Shown one piece after another: positions 2,897 to 25,388 of a DNA stretch of 29,997 bases (positions are counted from its first letter, which is position 1; the number at the start of each line of letters is the position of its first letter). The translations under genes and the position numbers were made by a program. The notes below the pieces were generated by a model, which saw nothing but the letters and a program-made list of their open reading frames with translations, was not told the DNA's origin and did not search any database. Source of the DNA: a virus; the IMG/VR virus record IMGVR_UViG_3300037488_000203, positions 1 through 29,997 of that record, one strand, 5' to 3'.

Positions 2897-5666
2897 GATA
2901 GTACTTGAGACAGGAGTCTTAGATGTATCTGAAAAGACTAACTTTCCTATCACGTTTAACGTGGGAGATATTAGAGACCTGTCAGCAAGGAAGGGGACAT
3001 TCTCTAAGACAATCACACTTGAAGGAACTAAGAACAACCATGAGCTATTAGGACACTACTATGATGTGAATATTCAGGCAGGTAGCTTTAACATCAACAC
3101 GTTGACTCGCTGTCAAGTGATACAGGATGGAGTGCCTATCTTAGATGATGCACTCTTGCAGTTGGTGAGTGTTAATAAATCTCAGTATACTAATGCTTAT
3201 GAGGAGGAGGTTAATTACACTGTACTCATCAAAGATAGTAGAGCTGAGTTTTTTAGTGCTATCACTAATGCTAATCTTGATGACTTAGATTTCTCAGACT
3301 TAAATCACGCATTCTCATCAACTGACATAGCAGCTACATTCAGCAACACTGTGGCAGATGGGTATAAATATGTAATGCCTGTATGTACAGGAACAAATGT
3401 CTATCAAGCTAATGAGTTCAAACCTGCTATCTATGCTAAGACTTACTTTGATAGGATATTCGCTGTGGCAGGATTTACATACACTTGGGCAGGTTTAACA
3501 GATGCTCACTTTGATAAGTTGTTAATACCTTACAATGGGGATGTTAATAACTTTGATTATACTGACTATAAAGTGGAAGCCACTAACACATGGACCACAA
3601 GTTATGTACAGGGCACAGGTGTGAACTATACATTCCAAGAGGACATTGACTCAGGATGGACAGAGATAGTGGATACACAATCTTTATTCAATCCTACTAA
3701 TGGAGAGTACAGTTCACCATTCAGTATAGACCCATGGGCAGGTGAGCACTATACTTATGAGTTACAGATTGGAGGCAGCATTATCCTTGATAATAATAGT
3801 GGAGGTAATGCAGTCCTTGAGTATATCGCGGGAGGATACATAGTTAAAAATAAATATAGAGTATTTGCTGAGGTTATTGTGGCAGGTTATGGCAACCTCA
3901 AGGTGTATGGCACAACAAGTGGAGTGGCTTACTATCCTGCAGCCTCACCATTACCAACAGGCAACACTACTCTGTTGACCTTTGCTGAGTCTCTTAGCAT
4001 CCCTGCCTTAGTTAGTGCAGTAGGTGTTCCTATAGATGTAGCTGACATACAAGTGTTATCAATAGGTGTTGAGGTAACTCAGACTTATGGTAGTGCTAAC
4101 AGTAACGGTGCTAATATTTGGATAGCAGCAGGTGGAGGCTTCACCCCTGTAGATGTTAATGTTGTTCTTAACTTAGCATCTATCACTATGGTGATACTGC
4201 CAAGTCAAAACGTGCAGACTACAGGAGGTACTCTAATCATGAACTCATATGTTCCTGTAGAGATTAAGCAATCAGATTTTGTTAAGTCAATATTTCAGAT
4301 GTATAACTTATACGTTGAGCAGGATATTGACAATCCATACAACCTTATCCTAAGACATAGAGATGAGTATTATGACTCAGGAGCTGAGAAGGATTGGAGT
4401 CAAAAGTTAGCGAAGGATAAAGCTCAAGAGTTGATGTTCCTTCCAGATGTGACTAAGAAAAAACTCAAGCTCACCTATGCACCCGATGAGGATCAGTCCA
4501 ATGTGTTATACACTCAGGCAACAGGAGAAATTTACGGCCAGATAGAATATACCTTTGACAATGAATATGTTAAGGATGTAGATACTAAGGAGCTACTATT
4601 CTCACCTACCCCTGTGTATAAGACATTATTCGGAGCTTATGTTCCTGCAATCAATGGAGCTGCACCTAATACTAACATCCGAATCTTATACGATGGAGGC
4701 TTAGGTACTTGCCAACCATTTGACATCATAGATTTTGGCACAACAGGAGAGATAGGCTTGACTGACTATCCTATGCTTGGCCACTTTAATGACCCGTTGT
4801 ATCCTACCTTTGATATTAACTTTGGCACTAATGATTACTATTTTTATGAGGTAGCAACACTGACAGCTAACAACCTTTACAACTTATATTGGAGGAGGAC
4901 TGTCAATCAGATAAACGTAGGTAAGATGTTGATAGCATTCTTTGACTTGAGTGAGGTTGATATCCAAGCTCTCAAGCTCAATGATAAGATATACATTGAT
5001 AACTCATGGTGGAATATTAACAAGGTGCAGGATTACAATGCTAATAACAACAGCCTCACAAAGGTAGAGTTAATTAGTATTGATACTGAGATTGACTTAG
5101 CACCTTATAAGACTGCAGCAGGTAAGCCTATTGGAGATACTATCGTGGCAGTTGGTAATAATGAGGTATTTAAGCAGAGTGCTCAAGTTAACAATGTAGT
5201 GGTGCCAGGCTCAGATGTTCTCATATTTGGTAAGGGCAACGCTGTGAGTTCAGGTGTTAAGGGAGTAGTGATTGGAGATGGACAGATACTTGAGCAGGAT
5301 GGTATGGTAGTACCTAACTTGACTGTGACTGATAGTATCAATGGAGCACCTGTGGTTAACTATAGGAAGTACATAGCTAATATTAGTCAAGCAGGTACAG
5401 CAGACCCTATAGTGACGGTGCTTGAGAATACAATAGGTGACATAGTTTGGGCAAGGGTAGCAGCAGGTAGGTATCAAGGTACATTAGTAGGAGCTTTCCC
5501 TGACCAAGATAAACTATATCTTTATTTAGGCAACAGTCAACAGAATAACTATGTTGCTATTTTTAGAGTCTCTGCAGATATTATTGAAATAATTACTTAT
5601 GACTTCACCAATACAGGGCAAGACAATATGCTTGATTATAACACAATCGAAATAAGAGTTTACTAA
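2889..5666 (+). CDS. Large tail protein, baseplate or tail-spike-like (putative)
   Basis: The protein has 925 residues. The N-terminal 120 residues contain FPITFNVGDIRDLSARKGTFSKTI, an opening I associate with large tail proteins of Bacteroidota phages. The centre is beta-rich. Near residue 780 there is a glycine-rich GKGN-GVKGVVIGDGQ stretch reminiscent of trimeric fibre heads, followed by a C-terminal domain of about 110 residues. It overlaps the gene before it and ends one base before the tape measure start, so translation is probably coupled. It likely forms the tail hub or spike that bridges tube and receptor. Exact role is inferred from size, composition and position. Confidence 0.65.
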   Translation: MVKIVLETGVLDVSEKTNFPITFNVGDIRDLSARKGTFSKTITLEGTKNNHELLGHYYDVNIQAGSFNINTLTRCQVIQDGVPILDDALLQLVSVNKSQYTNAYEEEVNYTVLIKDSRAEFFSAITNANLDDLDFSDLNHAFSSTDIAATFSNTVADGYKYVMPVCTGTNVYQANEFKPAIYAKTYFDRIFAVAGFTYTWAGLTDAHFDKLLIPYNGDVNNFDYTDYKVEATNTWTTSYVQGTGVNYTFQEDIDSGWTEIVDTQSLFNPTNGEYSSPFSIDPWAGEHYTYELQIGGSIILDNNSGGNAVLEYIAGGYIVKNKYRVFAEVIVAGYGNLKVYGTTSGVAYYPAASPLPTGNTTLLTFAESLSIPALVSAVGVPIDVADIQVLSIGVEVTQTYGSANSNGANIWIAAGGGFTPVDVNVVLNLASITMVILPSQNVQTTGGTLIMNSYVPVEIKQSDFVKSIFQMYNLYVEQDIDNPYNLILRHRDEYYDSGAEKDWSQKLAKDKAQELMFLPDVTKKKLKLTYAPDEDQSNVLYTQATGEIYGQIEYTFDNEYVKDVDTKELLFSPTPVYKTLFGAYVPAINGAAPNTNIRILYDGGLGTCQPFDIIDFGTTGEIGLTDYPMLGHFNDPLYPTFDINFGTNDYYFYEVATLTANNLYNLYWRRTVNQINVGKMLIAFFDLSEVDIQALKLNDKIYIDNSWWNINKVQDYNANNNSLTKVELISIDTEIDLAPYKTAAGKPIGDTIVAVGNNEVFKQSAQVNNVVVPGSDVLIFGKGNAVSSGVKGVVIGDGQILEQDGMVVPNLTVTDSINGAPVVNYRKYIANISQAGTADPIVTVLENTIGDIVWARVAAGRYQGTLVGAFPDQDKLYLYLGNSQQNNYVAIFRVSADIIEIITYDFTNTGQDNMLDYNTIEIRVY

Positions 5667-5667
5667 T

Positions 5668-8238
5668 ATGAATGAAGTTGAAATACCATTAAAGATAACA
5701 GGGATAGGTGCTATCAAGGCAGAGCTCAGAGAACTTAAAGGAGCTATAGCAGATGCAACTGATCCCGAACAAATAGCACAACTCTCAGCAAGAGCAGGAG
5801 AGCTTAAAGACCAAATTTCAGATGCTAATGATGCAGTGAATGTATTTGCATCAGGCTCTAAATTTGAGCAGGTGAGTAATTCTATCGGAGGTATTAAGGA
5901 CTCATTAATGAGCTTAGACTTTGAGGAGGCACAACAGAAGGCTCAAGTGTTTAGTAATGTAATGGGAAAGCTCAATCCTGGAGACTTAGCCAAAGGCTTC
6001 AAGGGGTTCATGGGTACTCTATCCACAATGGGTGGAGCATTCGTAAAACTTGGAGCAACCATCTTAATGAATCCTATCTTTTTATTAGTGGCAGTGATCA
6101 CTGCTATAGTGGTTGCCATTGGTATATTCTTAAAAAAGATAGGAGTACTTGATGCTATCTTAGAGGCAATCATGATACCTATCAATGCAGTGATACAAGG
6201 CTTTAAGGACTTGACTGATTGGATGGGTTTAACAGATAATGCAGCAGAGGAAAATGCTGAGGCAGTTAAAGAGGCAAGTGAGAAAAACAGAGAGAGCCTT
6301 AAGGCAGAGAGTCAAGCAAGGCAGGAACTATATAACCTTACTAAGGACTTAAGTGATGAGGAGATAGCTGCCATTGAGGAGAAGTTAGGAATTCAGATAG
6401 ATACAAGTCAGAGTATCTTTGACCTTAAGAGGGAACAGATAGAGGGTGACATGGCTATCAATCAAGCTGAGATTGACTCATTAAACTTAAAGAAGGAACT
6501 TACAGATGAGGATAAGAAGAGATTAGCTGACTTGACTAAAACTCAAGCAGATCTCGCTAATCAACAAGTGCAGAATGAGATAAACAAGATTAACGCTATA
6601 AGGAATCTCAATGTCAGCTTAGATAAGCAGATTGAGTTACTACAGGCCAAGCAAATCAAGGGAGAGTCTGAGCGTGCTAAGGCAATGCTTGACATACAAC
6701 AGAAGGAGGCACTTGCTAAGGTAGAGCAGCAGATTAAAGAGGCTCAACAGTTAGGTGATAGCACTGCACTTGCTAAGGCTCAACAGTTAAAGAACTTGAT
6801 TATCCAAGACTTTAAGAGACAGGAGTTAGAAATAACTAACAAAGGGAATACAGCTATAAGCAAGGCTAATGTCACAAGTGTGGGCAATACTAATAAAGAG
6901 GTAAAGAATAAATACTCTGATGCACTTGCTGACCTACGCAAAAAGAATGAGGTAGCTTTGCAAGAGGCAGAGAATGCAGGTAAGTCAGAGCAAGAGCTTA
7001 GAGAATTACGCATAACACAACTTGAAGCTGAGAGAAAATATTTGTTTGATAACCTTGCTAAAATCTATAAAAAGGAAGTTGATCAAAAGGCAGCACTCGC
7101 AAAGATTGACAATGACCTTAAGAAAGCAAGAGATAAGAATGCAGCGGATATAGAGAAGGCAGAGAATGAGGAGTTAATTGCAAGGCTAAAAAGAAAAGAA
7201 CTTAATGCAGCAGATGACATTGCTAAATTCGAGGCACAAAAGGAACTACTTGCAGCAGAGGCAAAGATAAAGATGGACTCACTTGAGGTAGGCTCAGAGG
7301 AGAGAGGATTGCTTGAGGATGAGACTGCTAAAAAGTTAAAAGAAATTGATGACCAAATCACAGCTAAAAAGATTGAGAATCAACAAAAGATTTTAGCAGC
7401 TGCACAACTTACAGCAGAGACTAAATTATCTAAGGAAGCCTTTGAACTTGAAAGATTTAAAGGTACTAAGGAGGAAGAGATTGCAGCAAATGAGGCATTC
7501 CTTAAAACTACATTAGATACACTTGATGCTCAAAGAACTGCTGAACTTGCAGCAAAAGACTTATCAGAGTCAGAGATAGCAGCAATAAAAGAAAAATATC
7601 GTCAAGCTGAAATAGTAGCAGAAGAGACTAAGGCCGCTAAGTTAGTTGAGATAGATGAGAAGGCAAGAGAGAAACTTAATGCAAATATTGAGGCTGGATT
7701 TCAACTTGCTACAACAGCAGCAGGAGCCATTGCATCAATACAAGATATCAACACAAAAAAGAAACTTAAAGGAGTACAGCAAGGAAGTAAGGAAGAGGAG
7801 AAAATACTTAAGCAACAATTTGAGCAACAGAAAAAAATGCAGTTAGCAATGGCTGTTATCAATGGTGCTCAAGCCATTACATCAATCCTTGCTCAGTATC
7901 CTAAGTTTGATGGAGGCTTTGCTATGGCAGCTGCAATAGCTGGCTCAGTAATATCAACGGCTACAAGTTTGGCAACAATAGCAAGCACATCCTTTGAAGG
8001 TGGAGGTAATGCTCCAACTGCAGATACTAATAGTTTCACAGGTGGAGGTAGCACAACAGGAGGCATGGCTACTCCATCAGTTAGTCTATTCGGTCAAGGT
8101 AACCAACTTAATAATGTAGGCAACCCGAACCAAGAGGGAGGAGGTCAGACTATCACAGTCAATGCTATAGTGAGTGAGACTGAGATGACTAACGTACAGA
8201 ACAAAGTAAATAAGATACAAAAGAACGCAGAACTATGA
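5668..8238 (+). CDS. Tail tape measure protein
   Basis: This 856-residue protein sets tail length and is ejected with the DNA. It has a helical N-terminus, a hydrophobic segment at about 129-155 (ATILMNPIFLLVAVITAIVV), then roughly 450 residues of Lys/Glu/Ala/Gln-rich coiled coil with many LAKA, EEIAA and KAK heptads. A second hydrophobic region near 725-785 precedes a Gly/Thr/Asn-rich tail. Its size predicts a tail on the order of 130 nm if about 1.5 angstrom per helical residue applies. In most long-tailed phages this gene precedes the tail-tip genes; here it follows them. Its CpG content is very low, like the rest of the late genes. Confidence 0.93.
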   Translation: MNEVEIPLKITGIGAIKAELRELKGAIADATDPEQIAQLSARAGELKDQISDANDAVNVFASGSKFEQVSNSIGGIKDSLMSLDFEEAQQKAQVFSNVMGKLNPGDLAKGFKGFMGTLSTMGGAFVKLGATILMNPIFLLVAVITAIVVAIGIFLKKIGVLDAILEAIMIPINAVIQGFKDLTDWMGLTDNAAEENAEAVKEASEKNRESLKAESQARQELYNLTKDLSDEEIAAIEEKLGIQIDTSQSIFDLKREQIEGDMAINQAEIDSLNLKKELTDEDKKRLADLTKTQADLANQQVQNEINKINAIRNLNVSLDKQIELLQAKQIKGESERAKAMLDIQQKEALAKVEQQIKEAQQLGDSTALAKAQQLKNLIIQDFKRQELEITNKGNTAISKANVTSVGNTNKEVKNKYSDALADLRKKNEVALQEAENAGKSEQELRELRITQLEAERKYLFDNLAKIYKKEVDQKAALAKIDNDLKKARDKNAADIEKAENEELIARLKRKELNAADDIAKFEAQKELLAAEAKIKMDSLEVGSEERGLLEDETAKKLKEIDDQITAKKIENQQKILAAAQLTAETKLSKEAFELERFKGTKEEEIAANEAFLKTTLDTLDAQRTAELAAKDLSESEIAAIKEKYRQAEIVAEETKAAKLVEIDEKAREKLNANIEAGFQLATTAAGAIASIQDINTKKKLKGVQQGSKEEEKILKQQFEQQKKMQLAMAVINGAQAITSILAQYPKFDGGFAMAAAIAGSVISTATSLATIASTSFEGGGNAPTADTNSFTGGGSTTGGMATPSVSLFGQGNQLNNVGNPNQEGGGQTITVNAIVSETEMTNVQNKVNKIQKNAEL

Positions 8239-19330: not shown

Positions 19331-19355
19331 CTTCATAATAATTAACAAATCAAAT

Positions 19356-19700
19356 ATGAAAGCAGAATTTTTAAAAGAATGTGGCAAGTGTTGGGGCACA
19401 GGCACAGTATCAATCAGCAGCTCTTATGAGCATCCATCTCACAGCGAGTCTGATACTTGTAATGAGTGTAGAGGTGAAGGCAAATACCTTGACTATGAGC
19501 TATTAACTGAGCGTGTTGAGGATGTAGAGTGGATGATTGATGGAATGTTGACTCGAATTAGATTAACATCTGATACTTTAAAAGACTTGAGTAGAGGTAT
19601 GTTCTATGAGTTACTCCCTAAGTATAAGCATAGACTTAATATTCAATCAAGAGCTCTTGCAAGATTAGAACTTTATTTGTTAAACCTTAAAATTAAATAA
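19356..19700 (+). CDS. DnaJ-type zinc-finger small protein
   Basis: The protein has 114 residues. Two CxxCxGxG modules, CGKCWGTG (C9, C12) and CNECRGEG (C35, C38), form one zinc site of the DnaJ central-domain type. The remaining 65 residues are helical and charged, with a pattern typical of a small adaptor. No J domain is present. As the first gene after the strong early promoter PE1 it should be one of the most highly expressed early proteins, possibly acting on host proteins. The zinc-finger call is firm; the target is unknown. Confidence 0.75.
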   Translation: MKAEFLKECGKCWGTGTVSISSSYEHPSHSESDTCNECRGEGKYLDYELLTERVEDVEWMIDGMLTRIRLTSDTLKDLSRGMFYELLPKYKHRLNIQSRALARLELYLLNLKIK

Positions 19701-21162: not shown

Positions 21163-21255
21163 ATGGCAGAAGAAGCAAAGATGGCAATGCTACTATTTAG
21201 CATAGGGATAATTATGATTATAATAGGATTGATTAAAAAACATAAAAATGACTGA
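21163..21255 (+). CDS. 30-residue single-span membrane peptide
   Basis: The ATG at 21163 opens MAEEAKMAMLLFSIGIIMII followed by GLIKKHKND: an acidic start, one hydrophobic span, a basic end. It overlaps the DnaA-like gene by eight bases and starts one base after the previous stop. The charge pattern would place the N-terminus outside. Function unknown. Confidence 0.5.
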   Translation: MAEEAKMAMLLFSIGIIMIIIGLIKKHKND

Positions 21256-21631
21256 CATAATACAATACATTGAGGATAATGACCTCAAAGCTCGCCACAG
21301 ATATAGACACTACACTTACAAACGTTTCTATCTCTACAACCTACTTAGAGAGGAAGGACTTACACTCTATGAGATAGCAGCCATGTTTAACAGAGACCAT
21401 GCAAGTGTGATACATGGACTTAAGACTCATCATGATCTAATCTCAATCAAAGATAAAATATACCTGGACTATATTGAGGAGCTCATGTTGATATTTGAGA
21501 ATTACAATGAAGGTCATGACCTTGTTGAGGATATTATGAACTGTTTTTGTTTGAAACAATTGAGAAAAATTAAGTTTAGAATTAAGAATAATCTCTACAA
21601 AGAATTAACTTTACCCTCGCATAACATATGA
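21248..21631 (+). CDS. DnaA domain-IV-like DNA-binding protein
   Basis: The protein has 127 residues. Residues 31-60 contain LLREEGLTLYEIAAMFNRDH and then ASVIHGLKTH: a helix-turn-helix plus the DHxSV-(I/L)-H signature by which DnaA domain IV reads DnaA boxes (family pattern R-DH-(S/T)-V-x-(H/N)-A). The ATPase domain is absent. The gene is the last before a strong terminator and an AT-rich gap with repeats, next to the primase-helicase, so it may mark the phage origin or compete with host DnaA. Motif match is seen; role is inferred. Confidence 0.72.
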   Translation: MTDIIQYIEDNDLKARHRYRHYTYKRFYLYNLLREEGLTLYEIAAMFNRDHASVIHGLKTHHDLISIKDKIYLDYIEELMLIFENYNEGHDLVEDIMNCFCLKQLRKIKFRIKNNLYKELTLPSHNI

Positions 21632-21651: not shown

Positions 21652-21684
21652 ACCCCCTTTGCAAACGAGCTCAGGGGGTTTTTT
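21652..21684 (+). terminator. Rho-independent terminator ending the early operon
   Basis: ACCCCCT (21652-21658), a 14-base loop, AGGGGGT (21673-21679), six T to 21684. It closes the 19356-21631 operon and isolates it from the gap and RNA downstream. Confidence 0.88.
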
Positions 21685-21958
21685 GTTTGTTAAACCGAAA
21701 TATTTATTTTTTGAAATATCTTGAAAATTGAATTTTTACGTGTTAAAACTCACATTATTAAGTAGTTAGAAAAAAGAAATATTTTTTACTCCTATACGCT
21801 CTATGAACGAATAGCAAAAACAAATTATTTTTTTCTGAAAAAAAAGTTACGATTTTTACAAAAGGCACTTAACAAATTAGTTATCAATAACTTACAACCG
21901 AAATATTTCCGAAATATTTTTTTTCTAAATATTTCTATTTTTCTATTAAAATAATACT
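21685..21958. other. AT-rich gap, candidate replication origin
   Basis: About 275 bases with no gene and very high A/T. It holds three copies of the 11-mer CCGAAATATTT (21695, 21898, 21909), the last two head to tail, a palindrome GAAATATTTC at 21900-21909, and TTATCAATA at 21881-21889, which matches a DnaA box at 7 of 9 bases. It lies between the DnaA-IV-like gene and the primase-helicase gene. These are typical neighbours of a replication origin, but nothing here proves one. Confidence 0.45.
21898..21919 (+). repeat. Tandem 11-base iteron-like repeat
   Basis: Two adjacent copies of CCGAAATATTT (21898-21908 and 21909-21919), about one helical turn each, with a third exact copy at 21695-21705 and a partial AAATATTTC at 21927. 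Repeats with helical phasing near a replication gene are typical of initiator-binding sites. Confidence 0.6.
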
Positions 21959-21966
21959 TATATTTG
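21959..21966 (+). promoter_or_regulatory. Host-type -7 box upstream of the structured RNA
   Basis: TATATTTG matches the Bacteroidota TAnnTTTG box. The -33 region is only T-rich (no TTTG at 19-21 bases), so it is weaker than PE1. Transcription would start at about 21970-21973, at or just inside the first stem of the RNA at 21968-22069. Confidence 0.55.
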
Positions 21967-21967
21967 T

Positions 21968-22069
21968 AAACGGTTAGACATCCACTTATAGAACCAAAGG
22001 AATTTATTTTAAGCCTTGAATTATCGAATGGAGTGGATGCCGTTTGATTTTTCAGGGCTTATTTTTTTT
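21968..22069 (+). ncRNA. Structured leader RNA: interleaved stems (pseudoknot) and switch-like alternative pairing
   Basis: Stem 1 pairs 21968-21973 and 21979-21986 (CATCCACT) with 22032-22039 (AGTGGATG) and 22040-22045: 14 pairs with a 5-base bulge. Stem 2 pairs 22010-22020 with 22051-22061 (11 pairs, one G-T) and is followed by eight T. The order of arms (1,2,1,2) makes an H-type pseudoknot; stem 2 with the T run also looks like a terminator. A second CATCCAC at 22080-22086 touches the ATG of the next gene and could pair with the same GTGGATG (22033-22039) instead. It may be a regulated 5' leader, an attenuator or a free small RNA. It matches no riboswitch class I recognise. Confidence 0.6.
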
Positions 22070-22086
22070 AACTTAATAACATCCAC

Positions 22087-23034
22087 ATGGCTATTGAATT
22101 TGAATTTGCAAGATGGTTTACGAATGAGGACTATCAAAAATTAAACTCTATCATTCAACATAACAAAATAGAAAATAATTCACAAAATCAATTATCCTGG
22201 TTACAGTCTAATTCTGATGCTATTATAAAAATGCATTCTGACTATTGTTCAATAGAATGGCATGACCAATGGGAAAAAAGAAAACAAAATAGTATCGATG
22301 TTCGGAATCATAATTTAAAAATAAATAACATAAAAAATGGAGATATTGAATATTGTATATGTGGATCTGAATTAAAATTTGTAACAAATTATAATTTTGT
22401 CGGATGTTCAAATTATTTAGATAAAACACAAAAACATACAATAATGTATTATAAACAACCTTGGTATGAAGATGATTCAGAACCTTTTTCTGCTACTTTT
22501 AAATTACATTACTTATCTGATATATGTAAAAAAATTAAACAACAATACAATATAAAAATACAATCATCTAATTTGTTTGAGTTTTATTTACTTAATAATG
22601 TTGAGTTATTAAATAAAAATATTACAAGAGAAACATTTAAAAATGCTGTTCAGGCATCTGAGACATCCAAAAAAAGAGAAATTTTAATAAAAAGCATTTT
22701 AGAAAAAAACAACATAAGATTTGGTTATCAAAGAAAAATAATTTATAAAATAAAAGACGGTAAACAAAGTCATGCAATACCTGATTTTATTGCTTTTATA
22801 AATGACAAGTTTTACATAATAGAACAGAAAAAAAATATGCATAATATCAATGAGTATCAAGTTGATTTTTATAAAGATTTAATTAGTTTTATGTATCCAA
22901 ATAAAAAAATTCACATCATTTTTATCATTGAAGAATCAAGTGATGATATTGAATATTTAATGCGTTTAAGTGAACGTAAAAAAAATGAGGTATTAACAGT
23001 AGAAGAATTTAAAAAATTTATATCATGGATCTAA
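22087..23034 (+). CDS. Zinc-ribbon plus PD-(D/E)XK nuclease, very AT-rich
   Basis: The protein has 315 residues. A Cys-containing motif CICGSELKF (C90, C92) with C107 and possibly H117 looks like a zinc ribbon. The C-terminal third has a PD-(D/E)XK nuclease core: AIPDFIAFINDKFYIIEQKK, with D233, E246 and K248, after a long helix that carries E198. GC is roughly a quarter, well below all neighbours, with A/T-ending codons almost throughout, so it was probably acquired recently. It has its own promoter box and structured leader, and overlaps the primase gene by ten bases. It could be a homing or anti-competitor nuclease or part of a defence-like cassette. The target is unknown. Confidence 0.7.
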   Translation: MAIEFEFARWFTNEDYQKLNSIIQHNKIENNSQNQLSWLQSNSDAIIKMHSDYCSIEWHDQWEKRKQNSIDVRNHNLKINNIKNGDIEYCICGSELKFVTNYNFVGCSNYLDKTQKHTIMYYKQPWYEDDSEPFSATFKLHYLSDICKKIKQQYNIKIQSSNLFEFYLLNNVELLNKNITRETFKNAVQASETSKKREILIKSILEKNNIRFGYQRKIIYKIKDGKQSHAIPDFIAFINDKFYIIEQKKNMHNINEYQVDFYKDLISFMYPNKKIHIIFIIEESSDDIEYLMRLSERKKNEVLTVEEFKKFISWI

Positions 23035-25388
23035 AAGATTATGCCTATGATTTACTAATGGAGGGATTTAATCCACTGCCATTAAAAGAGAACAAAGCTC
23101 CAAATCTTGAGAAGGGCCACAACTATTTGTATGAGTTAGTTGATGAGAATGATCTTGATAGACTATTTAATGACACTGCAAAGATAGGTATTGCCTGTGG
23201 AAAAGTATCAGAAGGTTTCTACTGTATTGATTTTGATGCTCACAAGGATGAGCCTATTAAAAATATTTATGACTCATTTATTAAGTTGCCATACATTCAA
23301 GGTCTTATCCAGGAAGGTAAGTTGTGCAGCTATAAAACTGCAGGAGGAGGGTATCACATCTATTTTATCTACAAAGATGAGGTATTGAGTGGTAAAACTT
23401 ATGCTTATTGGGAGACTAAGTCAGTAATGATTGAGATTAGAGGTAATGGTCAGTATGTTTGTTGTTGGCCAAGTCAAGGATATGAACACATATTTGGTCC
23501 AGAGTATGTCAAGCTCCAACCATTAGAGTCAAAAGATGAGGTTCAAACTATTCAAGATTTTGCTCACTCATTTAATAAGTACAAAGAGATAGTATCTAAA
23601 TCAAAAAGAACTGACTCAAATAAGAAATGGGCAGAGACTTGGAAGGATACAACTCCTGATGGAAAATACAATCTTGAATTTCAAACAGAGGCACTTGATT
23701 TACTTGCAAAGGCAGGATGGCAGTATTGTGAAACAAGAAATGATGATGTACAATATTGGACCAGACCAAATAAAGATATTAAAGATGGTTTCTCTGCTAC
23801 ATTTGGACACTATACAGGGATGTTTTATATATTTTCAGAAGACTTATCCTGCCAACCATTTGCAGCAAAGCAAGCCTACTCCCCATTTAACATCCTTACT
23901 GAGTTAAAATATGATGGTGATTGGAAGAGAGCAAAAGATGATCTTCGCAAGAGGTTTAACATGGTTGATAATGAGGAGTTTTGGAGTAAGAATGAGAAGG
24001 GCAATTATTCATTAAACAATAAACGCTTTAAAGACTTCCTTGAGTCACATGATTTCTTTAAAAACTCACCTAATGAAGGCAGTACATTTGATTTTATTCA
24101 AAAACAAGGTATATTTTTAAAGTTAATTTATGAAAAAGATATCAAAGATTTTGTCATTGATTGGATTGAAGAGAATCAATGTGATGAGGGAGTGTTTAAT
24201 CTAATGACAGGTAACTTGAAATTCTTTAAAAGAGATTATTTAAGCCTATTAAAATCAAAACCTATTGATGTTTTGAAGGATACTAAGGATGAGTGTTACT
24301 TATTTTATAAGAATTGCATTGTAAAAGTGACCAAAGATAATAAAGAGGTCATTAGTTATTCAGATGTGAACATGGCAATTTGGAGAGACCAGGTAATTAA
24401 TAGAGATTATTATCCAACTGATCACCACAAATCTGAATATAGAACATTTATTTGGAAAATTTCAGGTCAAGATGAGGTTAAATATAAGGCATTTGAGACT
24501 GTTATCGGTTACTTACTTCACTCATTTAAGACAAACAGCAACAATAAAGCTATTATTTTCAATGATGAGATTATCTCTGACAACCCAAATGGAAGGTCAG
24601 GCAAGGGTTTATTTTGGAATGCACTTAAACAACTACGAAAAGTACAGGCATTAGATGGCAAAACCTTTGATTTTAATAAGTCATTTCCTTATCAAAGTGT
24701 AGCAACAGATTGCCAGGTATTAGTATTTGATGATGTAAGAAAGTCATTTAACTTTGAGAATCTATTTAGTGTCATAACAGAAGGTATTACAATAGAGTAC
24801 AAAGGTAAGGACAGCATTAAATTGGATGTAACTGAGTCACCTAAGATTATAATCACAACCAATTACACCATCCAGGGAGATAGTGCCTCATTCAATGCCA
24901 GAAAATATGAGGTAGAAATGAGCTCTTATTTCAATGATAAGTACACTCCAATTATGGAATTTGGACATGAGCTATTTAATGAATGGTCAGATGATGAGTG
25001 GGCCAACTTTGATAATTACATGATGGAATGTATTAGCATCTATCTTGAGCATGGTTTAATTGATATGCCATTAAAGAATCTTGAATATAGAAAATTGATT
25101 GATCAGATAGGCAATGAAATGAACATATTTTTTGAGGGACTTTATAAGAATGAATATCTAAATATTAAGTCAACTTATGACAATTTAATGGATAACTTTC
25201 CTGAGTTAAGAAAAAGAAATATAAGTCAGAATCTTATGACTCGAAATTTAAAAAAATACTGTGAGTTCAATAAACTTACATTTGAAACAGCTTATTCTGG
25301 AGGTATTGGTAAGATGATAATTAAGGACCCAAATAAACCTGCAGATGTTTGGGATAATGTAACACCTATAAATGAAACACCATTTTAA
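23025..25388 (+). CDS. Primase-polymerase / SF3 helicase
   Basis: This 787-residue replication protein has an N-terminal prim-pol domain: the metal-binding CIDFD (D69, D71) and GGGYHIYF (H111), then the IEIRG-QYVCCWPS strand near 137. A middle domain follows. The C-terminal superfamily 3 helicase has Walker A NPNGRSGKG (K527), Walker B VLVFDD (D569, D570) and sensor TTN (N613). Such fusions synthesise primers and unwind DNA at phage and plasmid origins. It lies downstream of the candidate origin gap and overlaps the AT-rich nuclease gene. No separate DNA polymerase gene is present, so elongation probably uses the host enzyme. Confidence 0.92.
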   Translation: MDLKDYAYDLLMEGFNPLPLKENKAPNLEKGHNYLYELVDENDLDRLFNDTAKIGIACGKVSEGFYCIDFDAHKDEPIKNIYDSFIKLPYIQGLIQEGKLCSYKTAGGGYHIYFIYKDEVLSGKTYAYWETKSVMIEIRGNGQYVCCWPSQGYEHIFGPEYVKLQPLESKDEVQTIQDFAHSFNKYKEIVSKSKRTDSNKKWAETWKDTTPDGKYNLEFQTEALDLLAKAGWQYCETRNDDVQYWTRPNKDIKDGFSATFGHYTGMFYIFSEDLSCQPFAAKQAYSPFNILTELKYDGDWKRAKDDLRKRFNMVDNEEFWSKNEKGNYSLNNKRFKDFLESHDFFKNSPNEGSTFDFIQKQGIFLKLIYEKDIKDFVIDWIEENQCDEGVFNLMTGNLKFFKRDYLSLLKSKPIDVLKDTKDECYLFYKNCIVKVTKDNKEVISYSDVNMAIWRDQVINRDYYPTDHHKSEYRTFIWKISGQDEVKYKAFETVIGYLLHSFKTNSNNKAIIFNDEIISDNPNGRSGKGLFWNALKQLRKVQALDGKTFDFNKSFPYQSVATDCQVLVFDDVRKSFNFENLFSVITEGITIEYKGKDSIKLDVTESPKIIITTNYTIQGDSASFNARKYEVEMSSYFNDKYTPIMEFGHELFNEWSDDEWANFDNYMMECISIYLEHGLIDMPLKNLEYRKLIDQIGNEMNIFFEGLYKNEYLNIKSTYDNLMDNFPELRKRNISQNLMTRNLKKYCEFNKLTFETAYSGGIGKMIIKDPNKPADVWDNVTPINETPF

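Follow-up and report, generated by a model that had tools for sequence, protein, structure and literature searches.

A kissing-loop pseudoknot RNA with its own terminator heads the replication gene block in more than 150 viruses of Flavobacteriales-type bacteria

We describe a large family of structured RNAs, about 95-105 nt long, that is found in more than 150 viruses of Flavobacteriales-type bacteria, where it occurs once per genome and heads the DNA-replication gene block. The RNA is a kissing-loop pseudoknot of four helices, P1 to P4, the 3′ part of which has the form of an intrinsic terminator. The family is absent from Rfam 15 and is new as far as the sources searched show; structured leaders that carry a terminator are themselves of an already known kind.

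The member that we analyzed in most depth lies in a stretch of 29,997 nt, IMG/VR record IMGVR_UViG_3300037488_000203, called the window below (Table 1). A sequence-only reading of the window had proposed a pseudoknot of two interleaved stems between a host-type promoter and a nuclease gene. The arm order 1,2,1,2 is indeed found in the window sequence, and the 7-bp pairing of CATCCAC with GTGGATG lies at the positions that had been proposed, as does the second stem, a 10-bp helix that is followed by the eight T's; both pairings show compensatory change in 100 relatives. Only the inner portion of the proposed stem 1 held up, however. Its outer portion, AAACGG (21968-21973) with CCGTTT (22040-22045), shows no family covariation: in the 100-member family these bases are split over two hairpins, P1 and P4, and in the window the outer pairs compete with both conserved helices. 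The inner hairpin P4 was missing from the earlier account. Plain folding of the window region gave a z score of −2.65, and its minimum-energy fold already holds P1, P3, and P4.

Table 1. Positions of the RNA and of its neighboring features in the window
Feature	Position	Strand	Remarks
DnaA C-terminal-domain-like gene, last of the upstream operon	21248-21631	+	Bac_DnaA_C, E = 1.9e-6, 28.2 bits (curated cut-off 31.5, narrowly missed)
Strong terminator of the upstream operon	21652-21684	+	−16.9 kcal/mol hairpin and T-run; isolates the promoter of the RNA; same place in locus L001
Full match to covariance model R1	21957-22064	+	51.2 bits, E = 6e-9, sole strong match in the window; score not independent, since the window is among the 38 sequences of R1
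Promoter −7 box TATATTTG	21959-21966	+	A few bases 5′ of P1; box present in 93/100 members
P1 5′ arm GGTT	21972-21975	+	Covarying hairpin; GGTTC in many members
P2 5′ arm CATCCAC	21979-21985	+	Kissing strand, within the P1 loop; 96-98% paired with 22033-22039 family-wide
P1 3′ arm AACC	21992-21995	+	Family covariation
Linker P1-P3	21996-22010	+	A/T-rich, without pairing in the family
P3 5′ arm, terminator stem, AAGCCTTGAA	22011-22020	+	97.6-100% paired, 40 arm pairs
P4 5′ arm	22023-22031	+	9 bp in the window versus 4-5 bp in most members
P2 3′ arm GTGGATG	22033-22039	+	Within the P4 loop; family covariation
P4 3′ arm	22040-22048	+	Family covariation; in the minimum-energy fold of the window
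P3 3′ arm	22051-22060	+	Pairs with AAGCCTTGAA at 22011-22020, 10 bp
T-run of the intrinsic terminator, eight T	22062-22069	+	Directly seen in the window
Second CATCCAC	22080-22086	+	Real, abuts the ATG at 22087; private to the window, not a family feature
Gene for a 315-aa protein	22087-23034	+	PD-(D/E)XK-like motif (PD 232-233, E246, K248) and CxCG Cys motif; first gene after the RNA
Prim-Pol/primase-helicase, replication gene of the operon	23025-25388	+	Pfam Prim-Pol 4.9e-7, PHROG primase matches

Relatives of the RNA were collected by its own pattern. Protein search with the window nuclease found a sole homologue in IMG/VR, at locus L001 (55% identity), and none in phages, plasmids, or genome contigs, and with so few homologues the nuclease gene is a poor search handle and the RNA pattern a good one. 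L001 has the gene order of the window, and its leader keeps the promoter, pseudoknot, and terminator with altered but matching bases. A pattern built from these two leaders recovered some 33 further copies; this first DNA pattern was loose and its matches were largely chance, the true copies being distinguished by a fixed length of 37-38 nt. Two stricter patterns yielded additional copies, and a pattern for the 3′ half, in which P1 was not used, yielded many diverse copies among the matches listed. Covariance model R1, built from 38 members including the window, then matched strongly in 158 other IMG/VR loci (99 + 9 + 50), a number that contains some near-duplicates and is a lower bound on the family size. 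All of a set of 100 loci gave R1 matches (100), and in whole-record scans exactly one strong copy was present in 35 of the 37 records of about 18-70 kb. Two cultured phages also matched R1, Flavobacterium phage FL-1 (E = 2e-12) and Tenacibaculum phage JQ (E = 1e-6).

R1 does recover phage records; it found no copy in the genomes of 395 Bacteroidia species, a set scanned under stricter filters and holding no known positive. The Rfam search that the sequence-only reading had called for assigned the window RNA to no Rfam 15 class: across the window, five relatives, and targeted sensitive scans, only chance matches far below the gathering threshold appeared. The literature searched, a body that leaves out preprints and most subscription articles, contained no description of the RNA. 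Several candidate relatives were rejected. The blastn match in Tenacibaculum phage Larrie and the first one in JQ, whose true copy lies elsewhere, reflected promoter resemblance only, as did matches in Riemerella phages, which gave no R1 match; three pattern matches in genome contigs were due to chance. Two records, L044 (about 7110-7189) and G015 (19334-19413), also contain weak R1 matches, which lie about 2.1 kb upstream from the RNA; that in L044 has a TATATTTG promoter with a GGGGTTTTTT terminator no more than about 70 nt behind it and is possibly another small RNA.

The fold is carried by covariation in the homologous leaders, the check that had been suggested for it. Among the 38 members, standard pairs filled 90.8% of the cells of the named structure, compared to 69.1 ± 1.0 after shuffling, and 22 of the 27 pairs had changed on both sides; the covariation score was 0.589, against 0.182 ± 0.013 for shuffled data and at most 0.11 with the partners slid. 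When mutual information was computed over all column pairs of 100 members, P1, P2, P3, and P4 came out on top and no further helix appeared. Since P2, a kissing pairing of 7-8 bp between the P1 and P4 loops (median duplex energy about −12.5 kcal/mol), is absent from the alignment model, its covariation is independent support for the pseudoknot. Members collected with the P1/promoter patterns were 98% paired in P2, 100% in P3, and 84% in P4, and those collected with the 3′ pattern were 92.5% paired in P1, 96.6% in P2, and 97.6% in P3, with 33, 18, and 40 different arm pairs, respectively. De novo covariation in the 100 members revealed no conserved antiterminator helix that would exclude the terminator. 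Some pseudoknot riboswitches switch without an exclusive helix of this type, so that its absence is not decisive against a riboswitch. A leader peptide was rejected by inspection, as the ATG of the AATGAA motif opens ORFs of 2 to 10 codons, none of which is kept; as noted for the L063 RNA, the ORF that starts in this conserved motif has 10 codons in some members but only 2 in others.

Both ends of the RNA are equally regular. The TATATTTG box of the window matches TAnnTTTG, which we take to be the Bacteroidota promoter consensus, and this box lies a few bases ahead of P1 in 93 of 100 members, so that the host-type promoter of the earlier reading is borne out. The terminator at the RNA end was likewise recovered throughout, all 100 members having 5 to 8 T among the 8 nt that follow P3, and the P3-P4 hairpin has a median energy of −16.7 kcal/mol. 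From the RNA end to the next ORF start the median distance is about 19-20 nt, and it is 30 nt or less in 82 of 95 cases, whereas for control terminators in the same contigs (n = 83) the median is 93 nt and only 14 lie within 30 nt of a start. The following gene shares the strand of the RNA in 106 of 108 loci. The terminator thus abuts the ribosome-binding region, and no promoter fits between the U-run and the start codon. A strong terminator also stands roughly 220-320 nt upstream in the window, in L001, and at several further loci, mostly those with a downstream prim-pol, and there transcripts of the downstream operon most likely start at the promoter of the RNA, though promoters outside the simple consensus that we used could exist.

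What follows the RNA is constant in function but not in its first gene. In 80 of 92 loci, at least one of the five genes that come after the RNA belongs to a recognized replication cluster. The replication genes downstream are those for a DnaD-like helicase loader, a DnaB-like helicase, and a NinG-like endonuclease (PHROGs) or, as in the window, for a prim-pol with Erf and an exonuclease; the cluster of the DnaA-C-like protein is represented among the four genes upstream of the RNA in 34 of 81 loci. The gene that adjoins the RNA, in contrast, falls into 23 groups, among them HNH endonucleases, which are frequent, and the nuclease of the window. Since the RNA stays before the replication genes while its first neighbor is exchanged, the nuclease is incidental to it, and the link between RNA and nuclease drawn by the sequence-only reading did not survive the comparison. 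The nuclease label itself is reasonable as judged from motifs, PD...E-x-K (residues 232-248) and CxCG both being kept in three homologues; the protein had no significant Pfam or PADLOC match and no name in PHROGs, and its AlphaFold model is poor (pLDDT 53) and unfit for a fold search. The position directly after the RNA is a cargo hotspot, e.g., for homing-type nucleases, swapped among the 23 groups. Pfam PF00589, which covers integrases of the tyrosine type and leaves the serine type aside, matched in none of 34 records, which include both isolates and may include incomplete ones; together with the lack of the RNA in the Bacteroidia genomes this fits virulent phages, and the carriers apparently are virulent phages of Flavobacteriales-type hosts. 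Between the DnaA-C-like gene and the RNA, the window has about 260 nt of AT-rich intergenic DNA (21690-21950) with repeated CCGAAATATTT and GAAATATT words, and L001 is similar here; this segment could be a replication origin.

A conserved terminator that is placed between promoter and operon and fused into a pseudoknot is most simply read as controlled termination. We therefore give slightly better than even chances to a cis-acting attenuator, that is, a pseudoknotted intrinsic terminator that meters transcription into the replication operon. Transcription would start at the TAnnTTTG promoter just 5′ of P1; hairpins P1 and P4 would form during synthesis and their loops kiss via P2, and P3, which encloses P4, would close right before the U-run to give the intrinsic terminator. 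With the start codon about 20 nt past the U-run and no room for a promoter, polymerase must read through to reach the replication operon, and the level of read-through would set the amount or timing of replication gene expression. Termination presumably occurs and is regulated, and the kissing pairing P2 would tune it. The absence of a conserved alternative helix means that a classic two-structure attenuator is not indicated and argues for control at the level of the tertiary fold, by a bound factor, or by way of the polymerase; the signal might be a ligand, a protein, or a modified polymerase. At loci whose upstream gene reaches right up to the promoter, the stem may do no more than end transcription of the preceding operon. 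The preQ1-I, fluoride, and ZTP riboswitches are alike in being pseudoknotted leaders whose 3′ part is an intrinsic terminator before a gene, a likeness that implies no membership: the phage RNA differs from them in having neither an Rfam match nor a conserved alternative helix, and in having been found here in phages only, one per genome and before replication genes.

The main rival holds that the principal product is a stable small RNA of the phage, about 95 nt long, that acts in trans on host or phage targets while the operon lives on leaky read-through. It would leave the same sequence traces, namely, a promoter of its own at the 5′ end and a terminator of its own at the 3′ end, a compact pseudoknot fold, a single strong copy per record, and retention of the RNA despite a changing downstream gene, save for the fixed spacing of about 20 nt to a same-strand start codon, which is unexpected for a free RNA. 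The unpaired segments, moreover, are A/T-rich and present no evident conserved seed, and we hold this explanation to be unlikely, if a serious contender. Considerably less probable is an element like put of phage HK022, in which the transcribing polymerase, once bound by the RNA, would become resistant to later terminators of the early operon. In favor of this reading, the RNA forms the extreme 5′ end of the transcript of an early operon, with a single copy in each phage, does not depend on which replication proteins are encoded, and was not found in the 395 Bacteroidia genomes. Antitermination would have no need of a terminator, however, yet every member ends in one, and put RNAs are two simple hairpins, located at two promoters. 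The put RNAs and the Bacillus EAR element are comparable as cis-acting structured RNAs that stand at, or close to, the beginning of long operons, cis action being what we propose for the phage RNA, but the latter includes a terminator stem and a U-run in all of its members.

Two further readings take their cue from the window alone. In its toggle, the sequence-only reading had GTGGATG pair with either the 5′ CATCCAC or the copy at the ATG, thereby switching translation of the nuclease. The window does offer a perfect 7-bp alternative (duplex about −11.7 kcal/mol), and a comparable three-copy layout with true covariation exists in the unrelated Riemerella phage leaders described below. Nevertheless, when the 60 nt downstream were searched for repeats of the P2 5′ arm six or more bases long, the window alone of 100 members had one, against 0.76 expected, so that the second copy, while present, does not exceed chance. 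L001 and L069 have the same nuclease gene and the RNA but lack this copy, as do all other members tested; loss of the pairing bases where the gene is kept, the outcome that was to count against the earlier reading, thus applies to the start-codon copy and not to the pseudoknot. The terminator, furthermore, stands between GTGGATG and the start codon. The copy measures eight bases, notable for one sequence, but the reader had all of the window to pick it from. It could be due to chance or peculiar to the window; the family does not operate in this way, and we regard the two-state toggle as very improbable. Least probable of all is a system akin to type III toxin-antitoxins, or a guide-RNA system, with the pseudoknot RNA as the partner of the adjoining nuclease. 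The order of promoter, pseudoknot RNA, terminator, and nuclease gene in the window resembles that of toxIN loci, but exchange of the adjoining gene among 23 groups strongly disfavors such a partnership, and there is no PADLOC match. Compared to ToxI RNA, the phage RNA has no tandem repeats or repeat array, is present as a single strong copy, and has no conserved toxin or nuclease partner.

A better example of a toggle than the window is the leader of Riemerella phage PT03 (MZ995504; L269, positions 5069-5260) and of L270 and L272-L276, seven records in which an unrelated leader precedes a KilAC/antirepressor operon. Just after a TATATTTG promoter stands a 12-nt word, whose reverse complement follows about 110 nt on; a terminator comes next, and then the word once more, spanning the start codon. 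The word variants TGTTCAAAACCC, TGTTAATCCAAG, and TGTACAATCAAG change in all three places together. This leader, for which two records tested gave no Rfam match, looks like c4-type antisense control of an antirepressor. The C4 antisense RNA of phages P1 and P7 (Rfam C4) shares with the RNA of the window, and of the window alone, the design of a leader RNA that is part of the transcript itself and has one strand complementary to a start region. In the phage RNA family, by contrast, this start-codon complementarity is not conserved, and the window has no Rfam match and no antirepressor directly downstream, which sets its RNA apart from C4. This RNA belongs instead with the kissing-loop terminator family, having compensatory pairing in P1-P4, the promoter, the U-run, and a start codon about 20 nt on.

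Structured gene-proximal RNAs that are conserved in many phages and yet lie outside Rfam are uncommon, and the timing of early and replication genes in Bacteroidota phages is little known. The presence of only one copy, heading a single operon, and the turnover of the gene next to it likewise mark an insertion hotspot. As cultured phages of Flavobacterium (FL-1) and Tenacibaculum (JQ) carry the RNA, laboratory work can tell the attenuator, small-RNA, and antitermination readings apart. Building on the attenuator, we tentatively suggest, at somewhat below even chances, that the family constitutes an undescribed, widespread class of phage RNA in which a kissing-loop pseudoknot around a terminator gates the replication operon and senses a signal of the infection stage, for which a phage or host protein, a metabolite, or the state of the polymerase would be candidates. 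It would then serve as a replication checkpoint in phages without lysogeny control.
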